From: Rhodothermia bacterium
Lineage (GTDB): Bacteria; Bacteroidota; Rhodothermia; Balneolales; Balneolaceae
Reading direction: 5' to 3'
Length of the DNA: 64,000 nt
Assembly (NCBI GenBank): GCA_030427885.1
Contig: JAUICM010000002.1
Coordinates: 124,001-188,000, forward strand
The position numbers and the translations under genes were made by a program. The notes beneath the pieces are model-generated. The model searched no databases and had not been told where the DNA came from. It saw only the letters and a list, made by a program, of their open reading frames with translations. Each line of letters starts with the position of its first letter. Position 1 is the first letter of the stretch. Shown here one piece after another: positions 734-12,762 of this stretch.

Positions 734-3622
734 TTATACTTCCTCTATAGCATAAGCATCAATCGGGATACAGGAGCAAACCAGGTTACGGTCGCCATAC
801 GCATCATCCACACGAGCCACACTTGGCCAGAATTTGTTGTATCTGAGTTCCTCAACCGGGAAGACGCCTTTTTCACGAGGATAAGAACGTTCCCAGGTAT
901 CAGCGGTAACTACTCTCATGGTATGAGGTGCATGCTTTAACACATTGTCTTGTGCATCCGCTTTTCCTTCTTCGATCTCACGGATCTCATTTCTGATTCC
1001 GATCATAGCATCACAGAAACGGTCCAGCTCTTCTTTACTTTCACTTTCGGTTGGCTCGATCATCAAGGTGCCTGCAACAGGGAAACTCATAGTTGGAGCG
1101 TGGAAACCATAATCCATCAAGCGCTTGGCAACATCCACCGCTTCCACACCTGCAGATTGTTTATAAGGTCTGAGATCTATGATGAACTCATGTGCAGAAC
1201 GTCCTGATTTGCCGGTGTACAGTACTGGATAATGATTCTTCAACCTGTCTTTCATATAGTTTGCATTCAGGATGGCATAACGGGTTGCGTCTGTAAGTCC
1301 TTCCGCTCCCATCATTCTGATGTATGCATAAGAGATCGTCAAAATACTCGCGCTTCCGTAAGGTGCCGCTGAAATAGCCTGTATTCCCTGCTCACCACCT
1401 GACTCAACCACAGCATGTCCTGAAAGGAACGGTGCCAAATGTTTTGTTACACCAATCGGACCCATTCCCGGTCCGCCACCACCGTGAGGGATACAAAATG
1501 TTTTATGCAGGTTCAGGTGACATACATCAGCGCCGATCTCGCCCGGACTTGTCAAGCCTACCTGGGCATTCATATTAGCTCCATCCATATACACTTGTCC
1601 GCCGTGTTTGTGAATCACTTCGCAGAAATCTTTTACTTTATGTTCAAACACCCCATGTGTAGATGGATATGTGATCATCAATGCGGCGAGACGGTCACTG
1701 TATTTTTCAGCTTTTTCATTCAGATCTTCGCTCGAAATATTACCATGGCTATCAGTAGCAACAACTACAACTTCCATACCTGCCATCACTGCACTTGCCG
1801 GATTCGTTCCATGCGCCGATGCTGGAATCAGCGCAACATTACGATGTCCTTCTCCCCTGCTCTTATGATACGCCCGGATCGTCATAAGGCCTGCATATTC
1901 TCCCTGAGCTCCGGAGTTTGGCTGGAGCGAGATCGCATCGAAGCCGGTTATCTCGCATAACCAGGCATTCAATTCATCAAATAATTGGGTATAGCCTTCC
2001 GCCTGATCTTTTGGAACAAAGGGGTGGATCTGCCCAAATTCAGGCCAGGTAACCGGGATCATTTCCGCAGTAGCATTCAATTTCATAGTACATGAACCCA
2101 GAGAGATCATGGAATGAACCAAAGAAAGATCTTTATTCTCGAGCTGCTTCATATAGCGAAGCATTTCGTGCTCGGTATGGTACAGATTGAACACCGGGTG
2201 TTCGAGATAGGTAGAAGTTCTGTTCAGCTCCTTCGGGAAAGAGACTTCCACTTTCTCAGACTCGGCTTTCACATCGAAAGCCAGGGTTTTGCCCAATGAT
2301 TCATCAAAGATGCTAAGTACTAATTCGACGTCTTCTATCTCTTTGGCTTCATCAAATGCTATACCAACCCGCCCATCTCCGAAGTACCGGAAATTAACCT
2401 CGTTCTTTTCAGCAATAGCTTTCAGTTTAGCCTCGTCAGTTTTCACGGTTATCGTATCAAAAAAGGTATCGGTCAGGACTTCGATTCCCAGTGATTCTAA
2501 TCCTTCTTTTGCCAGTTTGGTCAAACCGTGGATCTTTGAAGCGATCTTCTTCAGCCCTTCAGCGCCGTGATACACACCATACATTCCTGCCATCACGGCC
2601 AGTAAAACCTGAGCTGTACAAATGTTTGAAGTTGCCTTCTCCCTGCGAATATGCTGTTCCCGGGTCTGTAGTGCCATTCGGTATGCTGCCTTGCCTTCAG
2701 CATCCTGAGTCACGCCTATGATCCTTCCAGGTATCTGGCGCTTAAAATCTTCTTTTGTTGCAAAATAAGCCGCATGAGGTCCGCCATAGCCCATTGGAAC
2801 ACCAAAGCGTTGACTTGTTCCCACAACCACATCTGCACCCATCTCTCCCGGAGGAGTTAACAGGGTCAAACTCATCAGATCCGCCGCTACAACTGTATTT
2901 ACTCCATTCTCATGAGCTGCTGCGAACAGACTCGTATAATCTTCCACTGATCCGTCTGTTGCAGGATACTGTACCAGCACTGCATATAATTTTGGATCGG
3001 TTACATCCAGAATTTTATGATTACCCACCACTACTTCCACGCCGATCGGCTCCGCTCTGGTTTCGATCACATCAATGGTTTGCGGGTGACATAATTCACT
3101 AACAAAAAATACATTCGCTTCTTTTCTCTTTGCGCCTTTACGCTGGCCTAATAACATACTCATTGCTTCCGCGGCGGCAGTTCCCTCATCCAGCAGCGAG
3201 GCATTTGCGATCTCCATTCCTGTAAGGTCGCTAACCATGGTCTGGAAATTGATCAGTGCTTCCAAACGTCCCTGCGCTATCTCTGCCTGATACGGTGTAT
3301 AAGCTGTATACCAGGATGGGTTTTCCAGAATATTACGTTTGATCACATTGGGAACATGGGTGTCATAATATCCCATACCAATAAAAGATCGATATATCTT
3401 GTTTTTGGAAGCCAGCTTTTGAAATTCAGTTAGGAAATCAACCTCACTTAATGCGGCCGGCAGATCCAGTGATCTTGAAAGCCTTATACCATCAGGAATT
3501 GTTTCATCGATAAGCTGTTCAAGACTTTCTGCCCCGATGGTTTGTAACATTTCATTGGTTGCCTGTGTGTCTGATCCATTGTGTCGGTGTGCAAAAAGCT
3601 CCTTCCTGAAGTCTATACTCAT
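734..3622 (-). CDS. gcvP: Glycine dehydrogenase (decarboxylating), P-protein of the glycine cleavage system
   Basis: GcvP is the PLP enzyme that decarboxylates glycine and passes the aminomethyl group to the lipoyl arm of the H-protein in the cytoplasm. At 962 residues it is the fused, full-length form (the E. coli enzyme is about 957), with two related PLP-transferase halves (about 1-440 and 450-950). The PLP-binding lysine lies in HLNLHKTF near residue 706, followed by the glycine-rich IPHGGGGPG. Other family signatures are [14 protein letters not shown] near 110 and [11 protein letters not shown] near 500. No gcvT or gcvH is nearby, so the other subunits must be encoded elsewhere. I see no glycine riboswitch in the 209-bp leader it shares with the divergent gene at 3832. 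Confidence 0.97.
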
Positions 3623-3831
3623 TAGGGTAAAATCCTGATTTTAGATTGCTAAGAGATTAATAAAATATTGGGCTGCCTGCTTTTGAAGACTGCCCGTAAG
3701 ATGGTCTGGAAAAATACATAAATTCATATTTAAATAAGCGTAAAATCATTCTTTAAAGATTATCATTTCTCCTTTTTTTGTGATTAATTCAGTTTGCGAT
3801 CTCAGTATTCTTAATTAATCCATACACATCC

Positions 3832-5811
3832 ATGAAAAAGTCTTTAATAGCACTACTGGGAATGATATTCCTTGGTGCATCACAAGTATATGCTCAGGGG
3901 ACTAATGAACTCAAAATTGTAGTGAATCCTGATCCCATTAACATAAATGTGGGAGAAGAAATTCAGATCAATGCAAAAGTGGTAAATGCTGACGGAGTTG
4001 TTCAGCCCGACACGGTACTTTTCTTTTCACGTTCTCCCCGATCCCTTTCTGTTAGCCGCGAAGGATATGCCAAAGCGCTTAAACCCGGTACCAGTAATGT
4101 AATGGTATTTAAACCTGCTCAGGGTGAATCACCAAGTATCAGAACTACGATCGAGGTAATGGTGACCTATCCTAAGCTTGAGAAGTTGGTATTCACTGAA
4201 TCCACATCTGAAATGTATGAAGGAACCTCCTTCCTTACTTCCACTGTGATCTATGATGAAATGGATTTTCTCCGGGATGACCTGGAAATAACTGATTTTC
4301 GTTCTTCCAAACCTGATGTGGCCCAGATCAACCGCTATGGTAAGATCAACGCAAAAAAACCTGGTAAAACCACGATCTCTGCTACCTATGATGGTATTAC
4401 CACTTCATTCGATCTTAGGGTTGAAGAGAACCCGGTACGTTCTGTTGAACTTTCTGTAGATAAAGAATCTGCCCGAACCGGCGATGTACTTCACCTGACT
4501 GCAATTGCTAAAGACCGAAAAGATCGTGAAGTCGAAGATGCACCCATCGAATATTCCTTCACCTCTGTCCCTGACGACCATCGGGGACAAGGAGCTTCAG
4601 CTCAAATCGAGCAGGATGGGCGTTTTGTAGCAAATCACCCAGGTCTTTACACCATTATTGCCAGAAATGCAGGTTCCGTGGATGAGGTCACCGTTCGTAT
4701 TGAACCACGAAATGTGGGCCGTGATATTTCTGTAGCTGGTTTTGGCGCTGTCAGTGATGTATATACTTCTGACTTGTGGGTGTGGGAAGGAGTTGACGGT
4801 CGCGATTATGCCGTAACCGGAACCTGGAGTGCAAAAGGCGACGCTCTTTTTTGGGACGTTACAGATCCATCCAACATGCATATCATCGATACAGTAACCG
4901 TTGACGCCCGCACTGTTAATGATGTGAAAGTTTCTGAAGACGGGCGAATTGCTGTTATATCACGTGAAGGGGCTTCTAACCGTAAAAATGGATTGGTGAT
5001 CCTGGATGTTTCAGATCCCTCTGATGTTAAGATACTCTCCCGCTTCGATGACGGCCTGTCCGGAGGAGTCCATAACGTATTTATTGACAAAGGGTATGTA
5101 TATGCCATCAATAATGGCCGTAAATATGACATCATCAATATCAAAGACCCTGCAAATCCTTTCCGTGTCAGTGAGTTTGAACTGGATACTCCCGGCCATT
5201 CTGTACACGATGTATGGGTGGTAGATGGGATCGCCTATTCTTCTAACTGGACAGATGGTGTAGTGGCCGTTGATGTGGGAGGAAATGCCACTCCTGATAT
5301 GCCGGGAGCTGGTGGGTCACCGGAAAACCCAGTAAAACTTGGCAGCTATACGTACCCAAGTGGCTGGAATCATGCCGCATTCCCATTCAAGAGTAAATCT
5401 GCAGATAAATTTTATATCGCTGCTGGTGATGAAGCTTTTCCAAACGGAGAAGCAGCAGGATATATTCACTTCTTTGATCTGAGCAGTTGGGAAAATGGTC
5501 AGGAGGTTGCTCGCTATGAAGTACCCGAAGCCGGAACCCATAATATCTGGATCCAGGATGATGTCATGTATGTAGCTTATTACCAGGGCGGTTTACGCAT
5601 CGTTGATGTATCCGGCGAATTAATGGGGAATCTGTATGATCAGGGACGTGAGATCGCCAGGTACCTTCCAAAAGATCCTGATGGAAAAATTCCTAACTCA
5701 CCACAGGCATGGGGACCTCAGCCTTATAAAGATCTTATTTTTGTGTCCGACATGAACTCGGGACTCTGGGCTCTGAAACTCAGCCCACCTAATACAGCCA
5801 GCGCACAATAG
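3832..5811 (+). CDS. Secreted Ig-like / LVIVD beta-propeller protein, copy 1
   Basis: A 659-residue exported protein. A type I signal peptide (residues 1-21, ending VYA-Q) is followed by about three bacterial Ig-like (BIG2-type) modules (about 24-290). From about residue 295 a beta-propeller of LVIVD-type repeats follows, with recurring units such as LVILDVSDPSDVKIL and GLRIVDVSGELMG. The propeller opens with DLWVWEGVDGRDYAVTGTW at about 314. It has no lipobox, no C-terminal sorting domain and no membrane anchor. It is the first of three tandem paralogues, 25 bp before the next start, and most likely in one operon with them. LVIVD repeats are known in bacterial surface and periplasmic proteins but their ligand is unknown, so I assign no activity. 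Confidence 0.85.
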   Translation: MKKSLIALLGMIFLGASQVYAQGTNELKIVVNPDPININVGEEIQINAKVVNADGVVQPDTVLFFSRSPRSLSVSREGYAKALKPGTSNVMVFKPAQGESPSIRTTIEVMVTYPKLEKLVFTESTSEMYEGTSFLTSTVIYDEMDFLRDDLEITDFRSSKPDVAQINRYGKINAKKPGKTTISATYDGITTSFDLRVEENPVRSVELSVDKESARTGDVLHLTAIAKDRKDREVEDAPIEYSFTSVPDDHRGQGASAQIEQDGRFVANHPGLYTIIARNAGSVDEVTVRIEPRNVGRDISVAGFGAVSDVYTSDLWVWEGVDGRDYAVTGTWSAKGDALFWDVTDPSNMHIIDTVTVDARTVNDVKVSEDGRIAVISREGASNRKNGLVILDVSDPSDVKILSRFDDGLSGGVHNVFIDKGYVYAINNGRKYDIINIKDPANPFRVSEFELDTPGHSVHDVWVVDGIAYSSNWTDGVVAVDVGGNATPDMPGAGGSPENPVKLGSYTYPSGWNHAAFPFKSKSADKFYIAAGDEAFPNGEAAGYIHFFDLSSWENGQEVARYEVPEAGTHNIWIQDDVMYVAYYQGGLRIVDVSGELMGNLYDQGREIARYLPKDPDGKIPNSPQAWGPQPYKDLIFVSDMNSGLWALKLSPPNTASAQ

Positions 5812-5836
5812 AAATTCAATCATAAATACCCAAGAA

Positions 5837-7855
5837 ATGAAATATATATCTACTTTTAAAATAACCGCAGTATGCACATTAGTGCTGACCATAATTCTGG
5901 GATCAAACCTTCAGGCACAGGAGAAAAAAATTGTTTTTGAGCCATCTGAAGTTAATATGGCACTCAATGCCAATGCAACATTGAAAGCTAAACTGGTAGC
6001 TGCTGATGGAACTGTATTACCTGATACTGTACGTTTCTTTTCAAGAGCCCGAAGAGGATTGCAGCTTGATCTGGGAGACGAACTCAATTCCCTTATTATC
6101 AAATCTCTGGCCCCGGGTGAGTTTATGATCACTGCCATGAGTATCGGGGATGATCCGGTCCGGATGAATATTCCTGTTAATGTAGCGTATCCTCCGGTTA
6201 CAGCTGTTTCATTTGCTAACATGCCTGATAACTACTATTCAGACACATCTTTTCCACTGGAGTTTGTAGTGACAGATGCTTCGGGTGCAATTCGCGAGAA
6301 CGTGGATGTAACTGTGAGCAGTTCCGACACCAAAGTTGCCAGCGTGAATATGTTCAATGAGATCAAACTTCATAAAAACGGTAAAGCAACCCTCACTGCC
6401 AAAGCTGAGGACGTGAGTGTCAACTTAAGAATTGATGTTAAGAACAACCCTACCGATGTGATCGCACTTTCCAATAACTATGAAGATAAAACCATTCGTA
6501 CCGGTGATGTAGTACATTTTGAGGCTGAAGCCCAAACATCACGTGGCTCAAAAGTCGAGGATGCTCCTATTACTTATTCTTTCATCGCTACCCCTGACGA
6601 TGACCTCGGGCAGGGTGCTTCGGCGATGATCGAACAAGATGGTCGGTTTGTTGCCAATGTTCCCGGAAAATATACCGTACTGGCCCGTTCAGGAAACAAT
6701 GTAGCTGAACATTCATTCCGGGTTACTTACCGTAATGTTCAACGTCCGGTTGAAGTACTGGGACGTGGAATCGTGCCTGATGTTAAAACTTCAGACCTTT
6801 GGGTTTGGGAAGGTGTTGATGGACGTGACTATGCAGTAACTGGTACCTGGGGTGCACGCGGCGAAGCCTTCTTCTGGGATGTTACCGACCCTTCAAATAT
6901 CCATACCATCGATACTGTGCAGGTAGATGCACGTACAGTGAATGACGTTAAAGTTTCTGAAGACGGGCGAATTGCAGTGATCACCCGCGAAGGGGCTTCC
7001 AACCGTAAGAACGGAATCATCATTCTGGACGTAACTGATCCGAGCAATGTTAAGATACTGTCGGAATATACCGAAGGACTGACGGGTGGAGTTCACAATT
7101 CATTTATTTATAAAGATCATGTATACGCTGTTAACAATGGCCGTAAGTATGATATCATCAATATCGAAGACCCTACCAATCCACATACTGTAGGTGTGTT
7201 CGAATTAGATACTCCGGGACATTCAATTCATGATGTCTGGATCCAGGATGGTATCGCCTATTCTTCTAACTGGAGTGATGGCATCGTGGCTGTTGATATC
7301 GGAAGTAACACCAGTGCTGATATGCCCGGTGCCGGAGGTTCTCCTGAAAATCCGGTTCAGCTTGGAAGTTATAAATATCCAAGTGGCTGGAACCATGCTG
7401 CATTCCCATTCAAAAGTAAATCTACCGGCGACTTCTATGTTGCTGCCGGAGATGAAGCTTTTCCTTATGGTTTGAACTTTGATGGGCCTAACAGGGCAGC
7501 AGGTTGGGTTCATTTCATAAAATTTGATGGTTGGGATAAACCATCTGAAGTAGCCCGTTACCAGGTTCCTGAAGCAGGATCACACAACTACTGGATCGAG
7601 GATGATGTACTCTATGCAGCTTTTTACAATGGCGGACTCAGAGTAGTGGATCTTTCGGGCGAATTAATGGGGGATCTTTACCAGCAGGGAAGAGAAATTG
7701 CCATGTTCCTTCCATCTGATAAAAATGCCGCAATCCCTAACGCTACATTCACATGGGGACCACAACCTTATAAAGGTATGATCTTTATGTCGGACTGGGG
7801 ATCCGGGATCTGGTGTATCAAGCTCGGTGAAACTAATACCGATGGAACCAATTAA
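5837..7855 (+). CDS. Secreted Ig-like / LVIVD beta-propeller protein, copy 2
   Basis: A 672-residue paralogue of the preceding protein with the same layout: signal peptide (1-27, ending LQA-Q), Ig-like modules (about 30-300), and an LVIVD propeller beginning at DLWVWEGVDGRDYAVTGTW (about 320). The propeller half is very close to copy 1, including a stretch of identical DNA of about 20 bases (around 4930 and 6955). The N-terminal Ig-like half has diverged much more. It starts 25 bp after copy 1 and ends 7 bp before copy 3, so the three are almost certainly co-transcribed. An insertion (AYGLNFDGPNRA-like loop, about residue 545) is shared with copy 3 but not with copy 1. Function unknown. Confidence 0.85.
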   Translation: MKYISTFKITAVCTLVLTIILGSNLQAQEKKIVFEPSEVNMALNANATLKAKLVAADGTVLPDTVRFFSRARRGLQLDLGDELNSLIIKSLAPGEFMITAMSIGDDPVRMNIPVNVAYPPVTAVSFANMPDNYYSDTSFPLEFVVTDASGAIRENVDVTVSSSDTKVASVNMFNEIKLHKNGKATLTAKAEDVSVNLRIDVKNNPTDVIALSNNYEDKTIRTGDVVHFEAEAQTSRGSKVEDAPITYSFIATPDDDLGQGASAMIEQDGRFVANVPGKYTVLARSGNNVAEHSFRVTYRNVQRPVEVLGRGIVPDVKTSDLWVWEGVDGRDYAVTGTWGARGEAFFWDVTDPSNIHTIDTVQVDARTVNDVKVSEDGRIAVITREGASNRKNGIIILDVTDPSNVKILSEYTEGLTGGVHNSFIYKDHVYAVNNGRKYDIINIEDPTNPHTVGVFELDTPGHSIHDVWIQDGIAYSSNWSDGIVAVDIGSNTSADMPGAGGSPENPVQLGSYKYPSGWNHAAFPFKSKSTGDFYVAAGDEAFPYGLNFDGPNRAAGWVHFIKFDGWDKPSEVARYQVPEAGSHNYWIEDDVLYAAFYNGGLRVVDLSGELMGDLYQQGREIAMFLPSDKNAAIPNATFTWGPQPYKGMIFMSDWGSGIWCIKLGETNTDGTN

Positions 7856-7862
7856 GATCATC

Positions 7863-9896
7863 ATGAGATCTGAATACCAATATCTGACACTCACATTAGC
7901 CCTGATCTTCGGGGCTTTTGTGCCTTTTGAAACCGCTGTTGCTCAGAACGATGTACCAGACAGCCTGATATTCCTGGATCTTCAAACCAAAGAACTCAAC
8001 CTTACTGTAGGTGACCGCTCTAAGATCGAGTATAAGTTTGTTGATGACGATGGCAATGAATATGATCGTGACATCAGCTTCTGGATGGGAGTCCCGGGAA
8101 GTACCATTGGTGGAGTACCCACAGATAAGCTAACGGTTGATGATCAGGGTAATGTTGAAGCTCTGGCTCCTGGCGAATATATAGTCAGAGCCGTTACTTT
8201 CTACCGCAGTAAGAACTGGAATTACACCAAAATAAATGTCGCCCCTCTGCCAGTTACCACCATTGTATTTAATGAGGGACCAGATACATACTACGCAAAT
8301 TCAAGTTATGTTATTTCAGCAACACCAATGGACAGATCAGGGAATTCACGGGCTGACGCTCCTGTAATTTATACCAGCTCAGATAATGGTATTGCTTCGG
8401 TTACCAAGTCCGGGCGTTTAATCCTTAAAAAGAAAGGGACCGTTCAGATCACAGCATCATCAGAAGGGGTTGTGACCTCAAAAAAAATCTCTGTAAAAGA
8501 AAATCCGGTAGCTTCGGTTGAACTGGAGGCCAGCGAATCATCTGTACGAACCGGAGATGTAGTTCATCTAAATGTTTCTTTAAAGGATAAAAACGGCAAA
8601 ACAGTAACTGGTGTTCCTGTAACGTATTCTTTTACCGGAGAAGCGGAAGAGAAAGAAGGCACAAGCGGACTTGGACTGATCGAACAAAATGGACGTTTTG
8701 TAGCAAACAAACCGGGTTTCTTCACTATTGTGGCTAAATCCGGGAATATAAGTTCTGAGGTTTATGTGGAAGCATCGCCCCGTAATATTCATCGAAGTAT
8801 TTCTGTAGCAGGCCATGGTGCAATCAAGGTGATGATGGCTGACTTCTGGGTTTGGGAAGGGGTGGATGGCAGGGATTATGCTATTACCGGAACTCATTCA
8901 GCTAACGGTGAAGCCTATTTCTGGGATGTAACTGATCCATCTGAAATGCATATAATTGACACCGTAACTGTAGATGCCCGCACTGTGAATGATGTTAAAA
9001 TATCGGCTGATGGTACGATCGGAGTTCTGTCCCGTGAAGGCGCTTCAAATCGACGTAATGGCATTGTCATAATGGATGTCAGAGACCCCGGTGATGTTAA
9101 AATCCTCTCTACATTTGATGATGGTTTAACAGGCGGTGTTCACAATTTATTTATCTACGAAGATCATATTTACGCCACTAACAATGTTAAAAAGTATGAT
9201 ATCATCAATATTGAAGACCCGACACATCCATACCGGGTCAGTAAGTTTGAGTTAAGCCGGCCCGGCCATGTGGTACACGATGTTTGGGTTGAAGATGGGA
9301 TCGCATATTCATCTAATTTCGGGGATGGCCTTGCAATTGTAGATGTGGGAAGTAACAATAGCGAACTGGGTGATGCTGGTGGCTCCCCTGAAAATCCTGT
9401 TCAGTTAGCTTCTTTCAAATTTGATAAAGGCTGGAACCATGCAGCTTTCCCATTCAAGAGTAAATCAACAGGTGACTTTTATGTGGTTGCCGGAGACGAA
9501 GCATTCAAGGTGGGGCTCGACCCAAATCAAGCTGTACAACCTACAGGTTGGATCCATTTTGTGAAATTCAACGGCTGGGAAAAAGCAGAAGAGGTTGCCC
9601 GTTATGAAGTGCCTGAGGCAGGTTCACATAATATGTGGGTCAAAGACGATGTGATGTATGTAGGTTATTATAATGGCGGACTCAGAGTTGTTGATATTTC
9701 AGGTGAGTTGATGGGCAATTTATATGATCAGGGTCGTGAGATCACAAATTTCACTCCTGTGGACCCGGATGCCTGGACTCCAAATTCAACTATGACCTGG
9801 GGTGCTATGCCTTATAAAAATTATATCTATATCTCAGATGCTAATTCGGGACTTTGGGCTTTTGAACTTGGTCCCGACTCAAACGGAACAAATTAA
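7863..9896 (+). CDS. Secreted Ig-like / LVIVD beta-propeller protein, copy 3
   Basis: Third tandem paralogue, 677 residues from the ATG at 7863. I chose this start because it places a normal signal peptide (MRSEYQYLTLTLALIFGAF, cleavage near VAQ-N) at the N terminus. The frame also allows a GTG at 7827 and an ATG at 7842, but these overlap copy 2 and add a charged leader. Ig-like modules occupy about 30-310. The LVIVD propeller starts at DFWVWEGVDGRDYAITGTH (about 327), with FWVW and ITGTH replacing LWVW and VTGTW of the other copies. It lies 24 bp upstream of the YVTN protein. As with its sisters, the ligand or activity is unknown. Confidence 0.83.
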   Translation: MRSEYQYLTLTLALIFGAFVPFETAVAQNDVPDSLIFLDLQTKELNLTVGDRSKIEYKFVDDDGNEYDRDISFWMGVPGSTIGGVPTDKLTVDDQGNVEALAPGEYIVRAVTFYRSKNWNYTKINVAPLPVTTIVFNEGPDTYYANSSYVISATPMDRSGNSRADAPVIYTSSDNGIASVTKSGRLILKKKGTVQITASSEGVVTSKKISVKENPVASVELEASESSVRTGDVVHLNVSLKDKNGKTVTGVPVTYSFTGEAEEKEGTSGLGLIEQNGRFVANKPGFFTIVAKSGNISSEVYVEASPRNIHRSISVAGHGAIKVMMADFWVWEGVDGRDYAITGTHSANGEAYFWDVTDPSEMHIIDTVTVDARTVNDVKISADGTIGVLSREGASNRRNGIVIMDVRDPGDVKILSTFDDGLTGGVHNLFIYEDHIYATNNVKKYDIINIEDPTHPYRVSKFELSRPGHVVHDVWVEDGIAYSSNFGDGLAIVDVGSNNSELGDAGGSPENPVQLASFKFDKGWNHAAFPFKSKSTGDFYVVAGDEAFKVGLDPNQAVQPTGWIHFVKFNGWEKAEEVARYEVPEAGSHNMWVKDDVMYVGYYNGGLRVVDISGELMGNLYDQGREITNFTPVDPDAWTPNSTMTWGAMPYKNYIYISDANSGLWAFELGPDSNGTN

Positions 9897-9920
9897 ACAA
9901 TCATTTTTAATCATCAAGAC

Positions 9921-11060
9921 ATGAAGTTTGTAAAACAGACATTCATCCCACTAATACTGCTGGCGATCATTATTACACCAAAACTGATCGCACAAGATTA
10001 TTATGCTTATGTTGCTGCTGAATCAGAAGATGAAGTGCATTTAGTACATTTTAATGCCAATACTCAGAATCTCGAGATCGCCGAAACTATCCATGTTGGC
10101 AGATATCCAACAGAGATCGACGGACCTCATGGAATAACCGTTTCTCCTGACGGTAAAAACTGGTTCGTTTCTATTGCTCATGGTAATCCATACGGATACC
10201 TCGCAAAATACAGCACAGAAACCAATGAACTGATATCCACCGCAGAGTTGGGAATGTTTCCGGCTAGTATGGAGATCTCAGAAGCAACCGGATTGCTGTA
10301 TGTGGTCAATTTCAATTTGCATGGGGATATGGTACCAAGCACCGTTTCTGTTATTGATCCGGAGAGTATGATCCGCATTGTTGATGTGGATACCGGTATC
10401 ATGCCACATGGTTCACGTTTATCCACTGATGGAAGGCGTCAATATCATGTTTCAATGATGACCGATGAACTAATCGAGATCAATGCCCAAACACTGGAAG
10501 TATCACGAAGATTAAAGCTCGGAAAAGATGCCCAAAAGATGAATCATGAAGGAATGGATCATTCAAAAATGGATCACTCTGCAATGTCAGGTCCTAATGG
10601 ATCCATGCCAATGCATAAACCTGTAGAGAAGCCAACCTGGGCTGATCCACACCCAACCAAGCCTTTTGTATATGTGGCTGGTAATGGTTCCAACGAACTG
10701 CTTGAGATCAGTACCAAAGACTGGCAGATAACCCGCCGTTTCACTACCGGTAAAGCACCATACAATTTGGAAGTAAGCCCAAATGGCAAACTGGTTGTGG
10801 TAAGTTATAAAGGAGAAGGAGCTACCGGAGTATGGGACATTGAATCAGGCAAAGAGCTGGCAAAGATCCCCAACACCAGGAGAGTGAGTCATGGTGTGGC
10901 AATAACACCCGATAGTAAATATGCTTTCATCACCGTTGAAGGAGTGGGTGGTGAGCCCGGATCAGTTGATGTAATAGATCTAAATACGCTTAAAAATGTA
11001 GACCATGTGGATACCGGAAAACAAGCCGGTGGAATATATTTCTGGAAGCAGGTAAAGTGA
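9921..11060 (+). CDS. Secreted YVTN-type beta-propeller protein with Met/His-rich insert
   Basis: A 379-residue exported protein with a signal peptide (1-24, ending LIA-Q). Seven-bladed YVTN/cytochrome-D1-like propeller repeats follow, with units such as HGITVSPDGKNWFVS, MPHGSRLSTDGR and YNLEVSPNGKLVVV. Between blades, at about residues 205-232, sits a low-complexity Met/His/Asp segment (MNHEGMDHSKMDHSAMSG, then SMPMHK). It resembles copper-binding stretches of CopB/PcoB-type proteins. The fold is known for binding and scaffolding and is sometimes catalytic, but I see no haem motif. It is the last gene of the four-gene plus-strand cluster, so it probably works in the periplasm or at the outer membrane with the LVIVD proteins. 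Metal binding is inference from composition. Confidence 0.82.
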   Translation: MKFVKQTFIPLILLAIIITPKLIAQDYYAYVAAESEDEVHLVHFNANTQNLEIAETIHVGRYPTEIDGPHGITVSPDGKNWFVSIAHGNPYGYLAKYSTETNELISTAELGMFPASMEISEATGLLYVVNFNLHGDMVPSTVSVIDPESMIRIVDVDTGIMPHGSRLSTDGRRQYHVSMMTDELIEINAQTLEVSRRLKLGKDAQKMNHEGMDHSKMDHSAMSGPNGSMPMHKPVEKPTWADPHPTKPFVYVAGNGSNELLEISTKDWQITRRFTTGKAPYNLEVSPNGKLVVVSYKGEGATGVWDIESGKELAKIPNTRRVSHGVAITPDSKYAFITVEGVGGEPGSVDVIDLNTLKNVDHVDTGKQAGGIYFWKQVK

Positions 11061-11793: not shown

Positions 11794-11934
11794 CAATTTT
11801 TAATCCGTCAGATTTAGTTAGTTGAAAATATTGAAATTTTAACCCGGCAACATGAGAAAAACTTAACAATTCAATGAATACAAGGTTCTTCAGTTTTCAT
11901 CTGTGTAATCTTGAAATTATATTCATCGTTAAAA

Positions 11935-12762
11935 ATGGCAATTCCTACCTGGTTTATTGAACTCGGCCCTGTAACACAGGCTCTCCTTGGGGGCTTGTTT
12001 ACCTATGCTGTTACGGCACTCGGTGCAGCTTTAGTTTTTTTTACACGAAAGGTAAATATCGCTTTACTTGATAGTATGATGGGTTTTGCTGCAGGTGTTA
12101 TGATAGCAGCCAGTGTTTGGTCGCTCATAATTCCATCCATAGACATGGCTGAGGCTCATGGCTCAATCCCCTGGCTTCCGGCCGTTATTGGGTTTTTAAG
12201 TGGTGGATTGTTTCTGCGATTATGCGATCACTATCTGCCACATCTCCATATTGGCTTACCCAAATCACAAGCGGAGGGCATTTCTACCAGCTGGCGCAGA
12301 TCAACCTTACTGGTTCTTGCTATTACTTTGCATAATATTCCCGAAGGACTTGCAGTGGGCGTTCTTTTTGGTGCAGCAGCTTCAGGGGTGGATCCAACGG
12401 GCACCGCTACAGTTGCTTCAGCAATAGCACTAGCCGTAGGTATCGGAATACAGAATTTTCCGGAAGGTATGGCCGTATCCATGCCATTAAGAGGAGAAGG
12501 ATTGAGTATGGGTAAAAGCTTTTGGTATGGACAATTATCTGGTATGGTGGAACCTATTGCTGCAGTTTGCGGAGCTGCTGCTGTTTTATATGTTGAACCG
12601 GTTTTACCATATGCTCTTGCATTTGCAGCCGGAGCTATGATTTATGTTGTTGTGGAAGAGCTTATCCCGGAAAGCCAGCAACATGGAAATACTGATATTG
12701 CCACCCTGGGCACCATGATCGGGTTTTGCCTGATGATGGTGCTGGATGTTGCTTTGGGTTAA
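11935..12762 (+). CDS. ZIP-family metal (zinc/iron) transporter
   Basis: A 275-residue inner-membrane protein of about eight helices, of the ZIP family that imports divalent metals such as zinc or iron into the cytoplasm. The hallmark metal-site motifs are both present: HNIPEG at 133-138 in helix IV and QNFPEG at 163-168 in helix V, with EELIPES at 251-257. A His/Asp-containing loop ([11 protein letters not shown], about 97-107) lies in the variable cytoplasmic region between helices III and IV, where ZIP proteins often carry histidines. I start at the ATG at 11935; an upstream TTG at 11911 would add eight residues before a normal N terminus. Substrate specificity cannot be read from sequence. 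Confidence 0.9.

Follow-up and report, generated by a model that had tools for sequence, protein, structure and literature searches.

Secreted LVIVD propellers with a predicted metal site are conserved as a pair with a YVTN-like propeller

A secreted LVIVD propeller protein and a second secreted propeller of the YncE/YVTN type are encoded as a conserved gene pair, which we read, on balance, as a metalloenzyme with an obligate and probably metal-handling partner. In the window (the whole 64,000-nucleotide stretch of a Balneolaceae genome analysed here), three co-oriented LVIVD genes, A, B and C, are followed by the partner gene, D, with gaps of 25, 7 and 24 bases between successive genes (Table 1). 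The four genes form one operon, whose promoter is presumed to lie in the intergenic region upstream of A. Each of A, B and C encodes a signal peptide, an Ig-like region of ~270 residues (Big_1/Big_2-like) and, at the C terminus, an LVIVD propeller of ~370 residues. For C, the listed GTG start at 7827 gives a poor leader and the ATG at 7863, 7 bases past B, a clean signal peptide. The first-pass annotation had proposed this shared layout with D close behind, and both the coordinates and the domain matches bear it out. AlphaFold2 models built from family alignments comprise three Ig-like domains and a seven-bladed propeller for B (mean pLDDT 90.4) and a seven-bladed propeller for D (mean pLDDT 90.9).

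Table 1 Features of the propeller gene cluster, in window positions
Feature	Position	Strand	Remark
gcvP	734-3622	-	divergent from A
Intergenic region	3623..3831	.	between divergent gcvP and A; same gcvP neighbour in nearly all Balneolaceae loci; presumed promoter
A: secreted, Ig-like + LVIVD seven-bladed propeller, 659 aa	3832..5811	+
B: secreted, Ig-like + LVIVD propeller, 672 aa	5837..7855	+
Predicted metal-site residues of B	7094..7585	+	matching motifs in A and C
B H420	7094-7096	+
B H465	7229-7231	+
B H520	7394-7396	+
B D539/E540	7451-7456	+
B H583	7583-7585	+
C: secreted, Ig-like + LVIVD propeller, 677 aa from ATG 7863	7863..9896	+
D: secreted YncE/YVTN-like seven-bladed propeller, 379 aa	9921..11060	+	partner of LVIVD protein
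Met/His-rich loop of D (MNHEGMDHSKMDHSAM...)	10524..10631	+	between blades 3 and 4, conserved face
ZIP-family metal transporter	11911..12762	+	kept 3' of D in Balneolaceae loci examined

What is conserved as a unit is a single LVIVD gene together with D. The three tandem paralogues stressed in the first-pass annotation are present here but are not that unit, since most genomes have a single LVIVD gene with D. All Balneolaceae that carry the pair have B; some also have A (L050-L054, L056 and L070), which in every case lies upstream of B, and C was encountered in the source genome only. A clear B orthologue occurs in 11 of 39 relatives, and D comes after it in all 11, in one genome (G003) past one inserted gene. 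A 750-base gap between B and D in one relative is explained by an inserted gene (L041:8669-9361) that looks sulfotransferase-like by eye.

Scanning genome contigs yielded 79 loci with close LVIVD relatives from about eight phyla (judged by record title, and drawn from Balneolaceae, Bacteroidota, Rhodothermota (Salinivenus), Acidobacteriota, Planctomycetota, Calditrichota, Marinimicrobia and Gemmatimonadota), and in 71 of them D is the adjacent gene. Of the eight remaining sequences, five stop at or within ~250 bases of the LVIVD gene (in L110, soon after another LVIVD-like frame begins), L117 runs on for 1.3 kb and L106 contains Ns, which leaves L077 as the one clear case without an adjacent D. 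All three of L077, L106 and L117 come from genomes that carry D elsewhere. Searching from the D side, we found an LVIVD gene adjacent in 30 of 30 D loci fetched. The suggested search for conserved neighbours thus returns D as a near-universal neighbour of the LVIVD gene; the homologues are usually paired, whereas the outcome that the first-pass annotation had named as counting against it was homologues usually found alone. L110, a close LVIVD homologue, is filed in a Pelagibacteraceae bin, probably a binning error.

The two genes also occur together at the genome level. Across 394 genomes of the phylum, both genes are present in 42, LVIVD alone in one, D alone in none and neither gene in 351 (43 with LVIVD and 42 with D; Fisher P 6e-56, uncorrected for relatedness). 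Genera such as g7 and g19 contain some genomes with both genes and others with neither, which argues that the two are acquired and lost together. Co-occurrence outlasts lost linkage, both in the genome of L077 and in seven genomes of family f13, which retain LVIVD and D on different contigs. In the eighth f13 genome, G289, which is the one with LVIVD only, D is absent even at E 1e-5; in this single case the LVIVD protein is altered at N369, E385, D539 and Y597, all otherwise conserved.

No third neighbour conserved across phyla was found, the operon neighbours being ordinary genes, and the examined LVIVD loci held no catalytic neighbour gene conserved across phyla. We considered gcvP and the ZIP transporter as parts of the system, but their conservation was seen in Balneolaceae only and is probably synteny; the transporter downstream of D may be plain synteny. 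A PhoX-family phosphatase adjoins the unlinked LVIVD gene in two of eight f13 genomes (L193:7761-9122 and L195:4237-5565); we discarded it as a functional clue because it appears at none of the other loci.

The two halves of the LVIVD proteins have diverged unequally. Pairwise identity among A, B and C is 66-72% in the propeller halves and 32-39% in the Ig-like halves (Ig and propeller identities of 0.39 and 0.72 for A-B, 0.32 and 0.67 for A-C, and 0.32 and 0.66 for B-C), as the first-pass annotation had observed. B and its orthologues in other genomes differ in the same way (mean 0.43 for Ig, 0.77 for propeller). Aligning by domain and computing substitution rates, as had been proposed, gave a dN of 0.69 for the Ig half and 0.21 for the propeller in the A-B comparison. 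This gap upholds one of the two causes that had been offered: strong selection on the propeller explains the likeness of the propeller halves.

The other cause, gene conversion among the tandem copies, is very improbable. The exact DNA stretches of about 20 bases cited as its sign do exist, at 20-26 bases, but permuting codons while keeping the protein alignment produces similar runs (longest run P 0.08-0.24), about what a conserved protein allows. Between A and B, 39 of 59 four-fold sites are changed in the Ig half (0.66) and 78 of 133 in the propeller (0.59); this divergence hardly differs between halves, which rules out recent homogenisation of the propeller DNA. Both halves alike are saturated at silent sites, and in the tree of either half A groups with A orthologues and B with B orthologues, so conversion does not explain the pattern. 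Recent conversion is thereby refuted, with room left for a short, old tract. The propeller and full-length trees place C, on a long branch, as sister of the A clade; the Ig tree does not resolve its position.

Four histidines and a glutamate at the hub recur in every LVIVD propeller of the set. Counting strands in the B model places the inner-strand starts of the blades at D320, N369/D370, H420, H465, H520, H583 and W640. The four histidines, invariant in 51 sequences, thus begin the inner strands of consecutive blades 3-6, and D539/E540 sits in a blade 5 loop on the same face. The alignment shows the five-residue H/H/H/E/H set retained in TIGR04312 relatives and in a haloarchaeal protein, the exceptions being three rows with one misaligned or gapped cell each; the hub histidines are also invariant in FG-GAP-LVIVD paralogues of ~27% identity. 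Invariant positions number 54 of 175 in the top half of the propeller versus 35 of 171 in the bottom half (P 0.04), and all conserved histidines lie on top. Structural histidines at the inner-strand start of blades are found in other propellers too.

The hub residues match those of a known metalloenzyme, and the first-pass annotation was too pessimistic in holding that nothing in the sequence tells what these proteins bind. Sb-PTE, the haloalkylphosphorus hydrolase/phosphotriesterase of Sphingobium sp. TCM1, is a metal-dependent enzyme that breaks down organophosphates. Like B it is a seven-bladed LVIVD-like propeller; unlike B it has no Ig-like domains, and the two share ~20% identity. Searching the PDB with a propeller-only profile recovered Sb-PTE (5hrm/5ioj) at E 1.8e-4, an hmmsearch match summed over repeats that each score weakly; no second chain came in under 0.1. 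With a full-length B profile the matches were confined to Ig-like or unrelated chains, and neither A by itself nor the two other LVIVD paralogues of the source genome gave a meaningful PDB match. With the B model, 5hrm headed the compact propellers listed by Foldseek (TM 0.54 by target, rmsd 4.9).

Aligning the B family with Sb-PTE in hhalign (99.3% probability, with an E-value that is pairwise and not database-wide) paired all five residues: H420 with H258, H465 with H317, H520 with H389, E540 with E407 and H583 with H475, the Sb-PTE members being residues that we take to be its metal ligands. E201, presumably the sixth ligand, has no equivalent in B, where T367 occupies the aligned position and the invariant E385 sits elsewhere; a full binuclear site is therefore not established for B. 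The title of a paper cited in PMC11656708 describes Sb-PTE as having a binuclear metal centre embedded in a seven-bladed propeller. A, B and C all keep the complete hub motif, which suggests that all three are probably active as enzymes and differ in their stalks.

D has a conserved face of its own. Invariant residues occupy 36 of 189 positions in its top half versus 5 of 152 in its bottom half (P 4e-6), a sharper contrast than in the LVIVD propeller, and its conserved histidines (H70, H87, H134, H163 and H324) all lie on the top face. The loop between blades 3 and 4 is 11% His and 11% Met, against 2.8% each elsewhere in D. About three-quarters of 46 homologues have a loop rich in Met and His, often with MDHSxM repeats, and in roughly a dozen of the 46 it is missing or short. 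Repeats of the MDHSxM type are of a kind seen in copper-handling proteins, and together the face and the loop hint at soft-metal handling. By Pfam, 45 of 46 family members match YNCE and 42 match Lactonase at E 0.001. E. coli YncE, the archaeal surface-layer YVTN propeller 1l0q, NirF and hydrazine synthase beta share the fold and distant sequence similarity with D, but the D family is set apart by its own invariant His/Met face and by the Met/His loop.

We propose that the locus expands on an exported system of two proteins, B having been duplicated as A and C. The four hub histidines on consecutive blades, with the glutamate, would hold one or two metal ions, of a kind that we can only infer, at the mouth of the propeller as in Sb-PTE. 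The LVIVD protein would then most likely hydrolyse an ester or phosphoester outside the cytoplasm; phosphoester hydrolysis in particular is possible, and we hold it tentatively. The three Ig-like domains may serve as a spacer or targeting stalk, whose divergence would allow each copy its own location or partner with the active site preserved. D, as the obligate partner propeller, presumably contacts the LVIVD protein and might supply or guard the metal, or complete the site. A wider proposal would make all LVIVD propellers, so far known only as surface repeats, members of a large hidden superfamily of exported metalloenzymes, with this branch being two-component and D obligatory for loading or completing the metal site; it strikes us as conceivable and somewhat doubtful.

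The same residues could be read differently. If the metal in the LVIVD hub were redox-active (copper or iron) and D donated copper or served as redox partner, the two proteins would be an oxidase or oxygenase; nitrous-oxide reductase and the four-histidine iron oxygenases with propeller folds are parallels. The four-histidine hub and the MDHSxM-type loop of D agree with this, as do the PDB matches of the D profile to hydrazine synthase beta, NirF and YncE and the resemblance of the D model to cytochrome cd1 and NosZ. D alone matches L-NosZ weakly, and its scores for L-NosZ (52/700 bits) and hydrazine synthase beta (48/560 bits) are below the curated cut-offs. Against it, the LVIVD propeller is linked to Sb-PTE in both sequence and fold, the glutamate included, and no cupredoxin or conserved redox neighbour was seen. 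We regard redox chemistry as unlikely.

Exported binding or adhesion proteins, with conserved faces that bind a glycan, a peptide or each other without catalysis, are a further candidate that we consider improbable. Adhesive protein faces usually vary, whereas the LVIVD face is highly conserved, with an H/H/H/E/H set that is invariant in bacterial and archaeal relatives and matches an enzyme site. Secretion, Ig-like stalks and tandem duplication with diverged stalks fit adhesion, and LVIVD repeats were first described in cell-surface proteins (PMC2447325). Since the four-His/one-Glu pattern of a known metal-dependent enzyme is present, the LVIVD protein is probably an enzyme rather than an adhesin, as judged from its sequence.

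In Pfam terms, A and C exceed the LVIVD cut-off (PF08309) and B falls below it at 14.3 bits; TIGR04312 (choice-of-anchor B) matches A, B and C at 69.6, 60.0 and 47.6 bits, all below its cut-off of 100. The AlphaFold2 model of B and the alignment show the seven-bladed propeller and the hub signature shared with these families. They differ from other choice-of-anchor B proteins in that most other TIGR04312 loci examined have no D-like neighbour. LVIVD and choice-of-anchor B proteins are widespread in bacteria and archaea, and we found no assigned function for them; the literature on LVIVD function yielded only a 2004 description and passing mentions. A tie to a solved metalloenzyme, with five mutable residues, would turn a nameless repeat family into a testable enzyme family, and the LVIVD-D pair, retained even when unlinked, is a clean new two-component target.

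The Sb-PTE link would, in addition, suggest where a phosphotriesterase that degrades pollutants came from. An Sb-PTE homologue (L155:2302-4053) lies on a conjugative Sphingobium plasmid recovered from e-waste sediment; it is 97% identical to Sb-PTE over a 74-residue query, is annotated 'hypothetical protein' and sits close to an IS6100 transposase. The annotated surrounding genes include no D-like gene.

Related modules occur elsewhere in the source genome. On another contig, L032:5033-10457 encodes an FG-GAP+LVIVD protein, a YVTN propeller (D2) and a VCBS/FG-GAP lipoprotein, a module also conserved in relatives (L034-L036). It resembles the A/B/C-D locus in pairing an LVIVD propeller of the same hub residues with an adjacent YVTN propeller, but an FG-GAP propeller replaces the Ig domains, a third gene is added and identity is ~27%. 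D2 has weak SBP56 and methanethiol oxidase matches. A third LVIVD protein (L033:5834-8688), with an H/H/H/DE/H pattern by eye, is encoded directly after a DUF305 protein with an MDHTKM motif. The same genome also has a tandem TIGR04312 pair of about 490-500 aa (G000:C8:334977-337677), and its TIGR04312 match rows number 11 in all.
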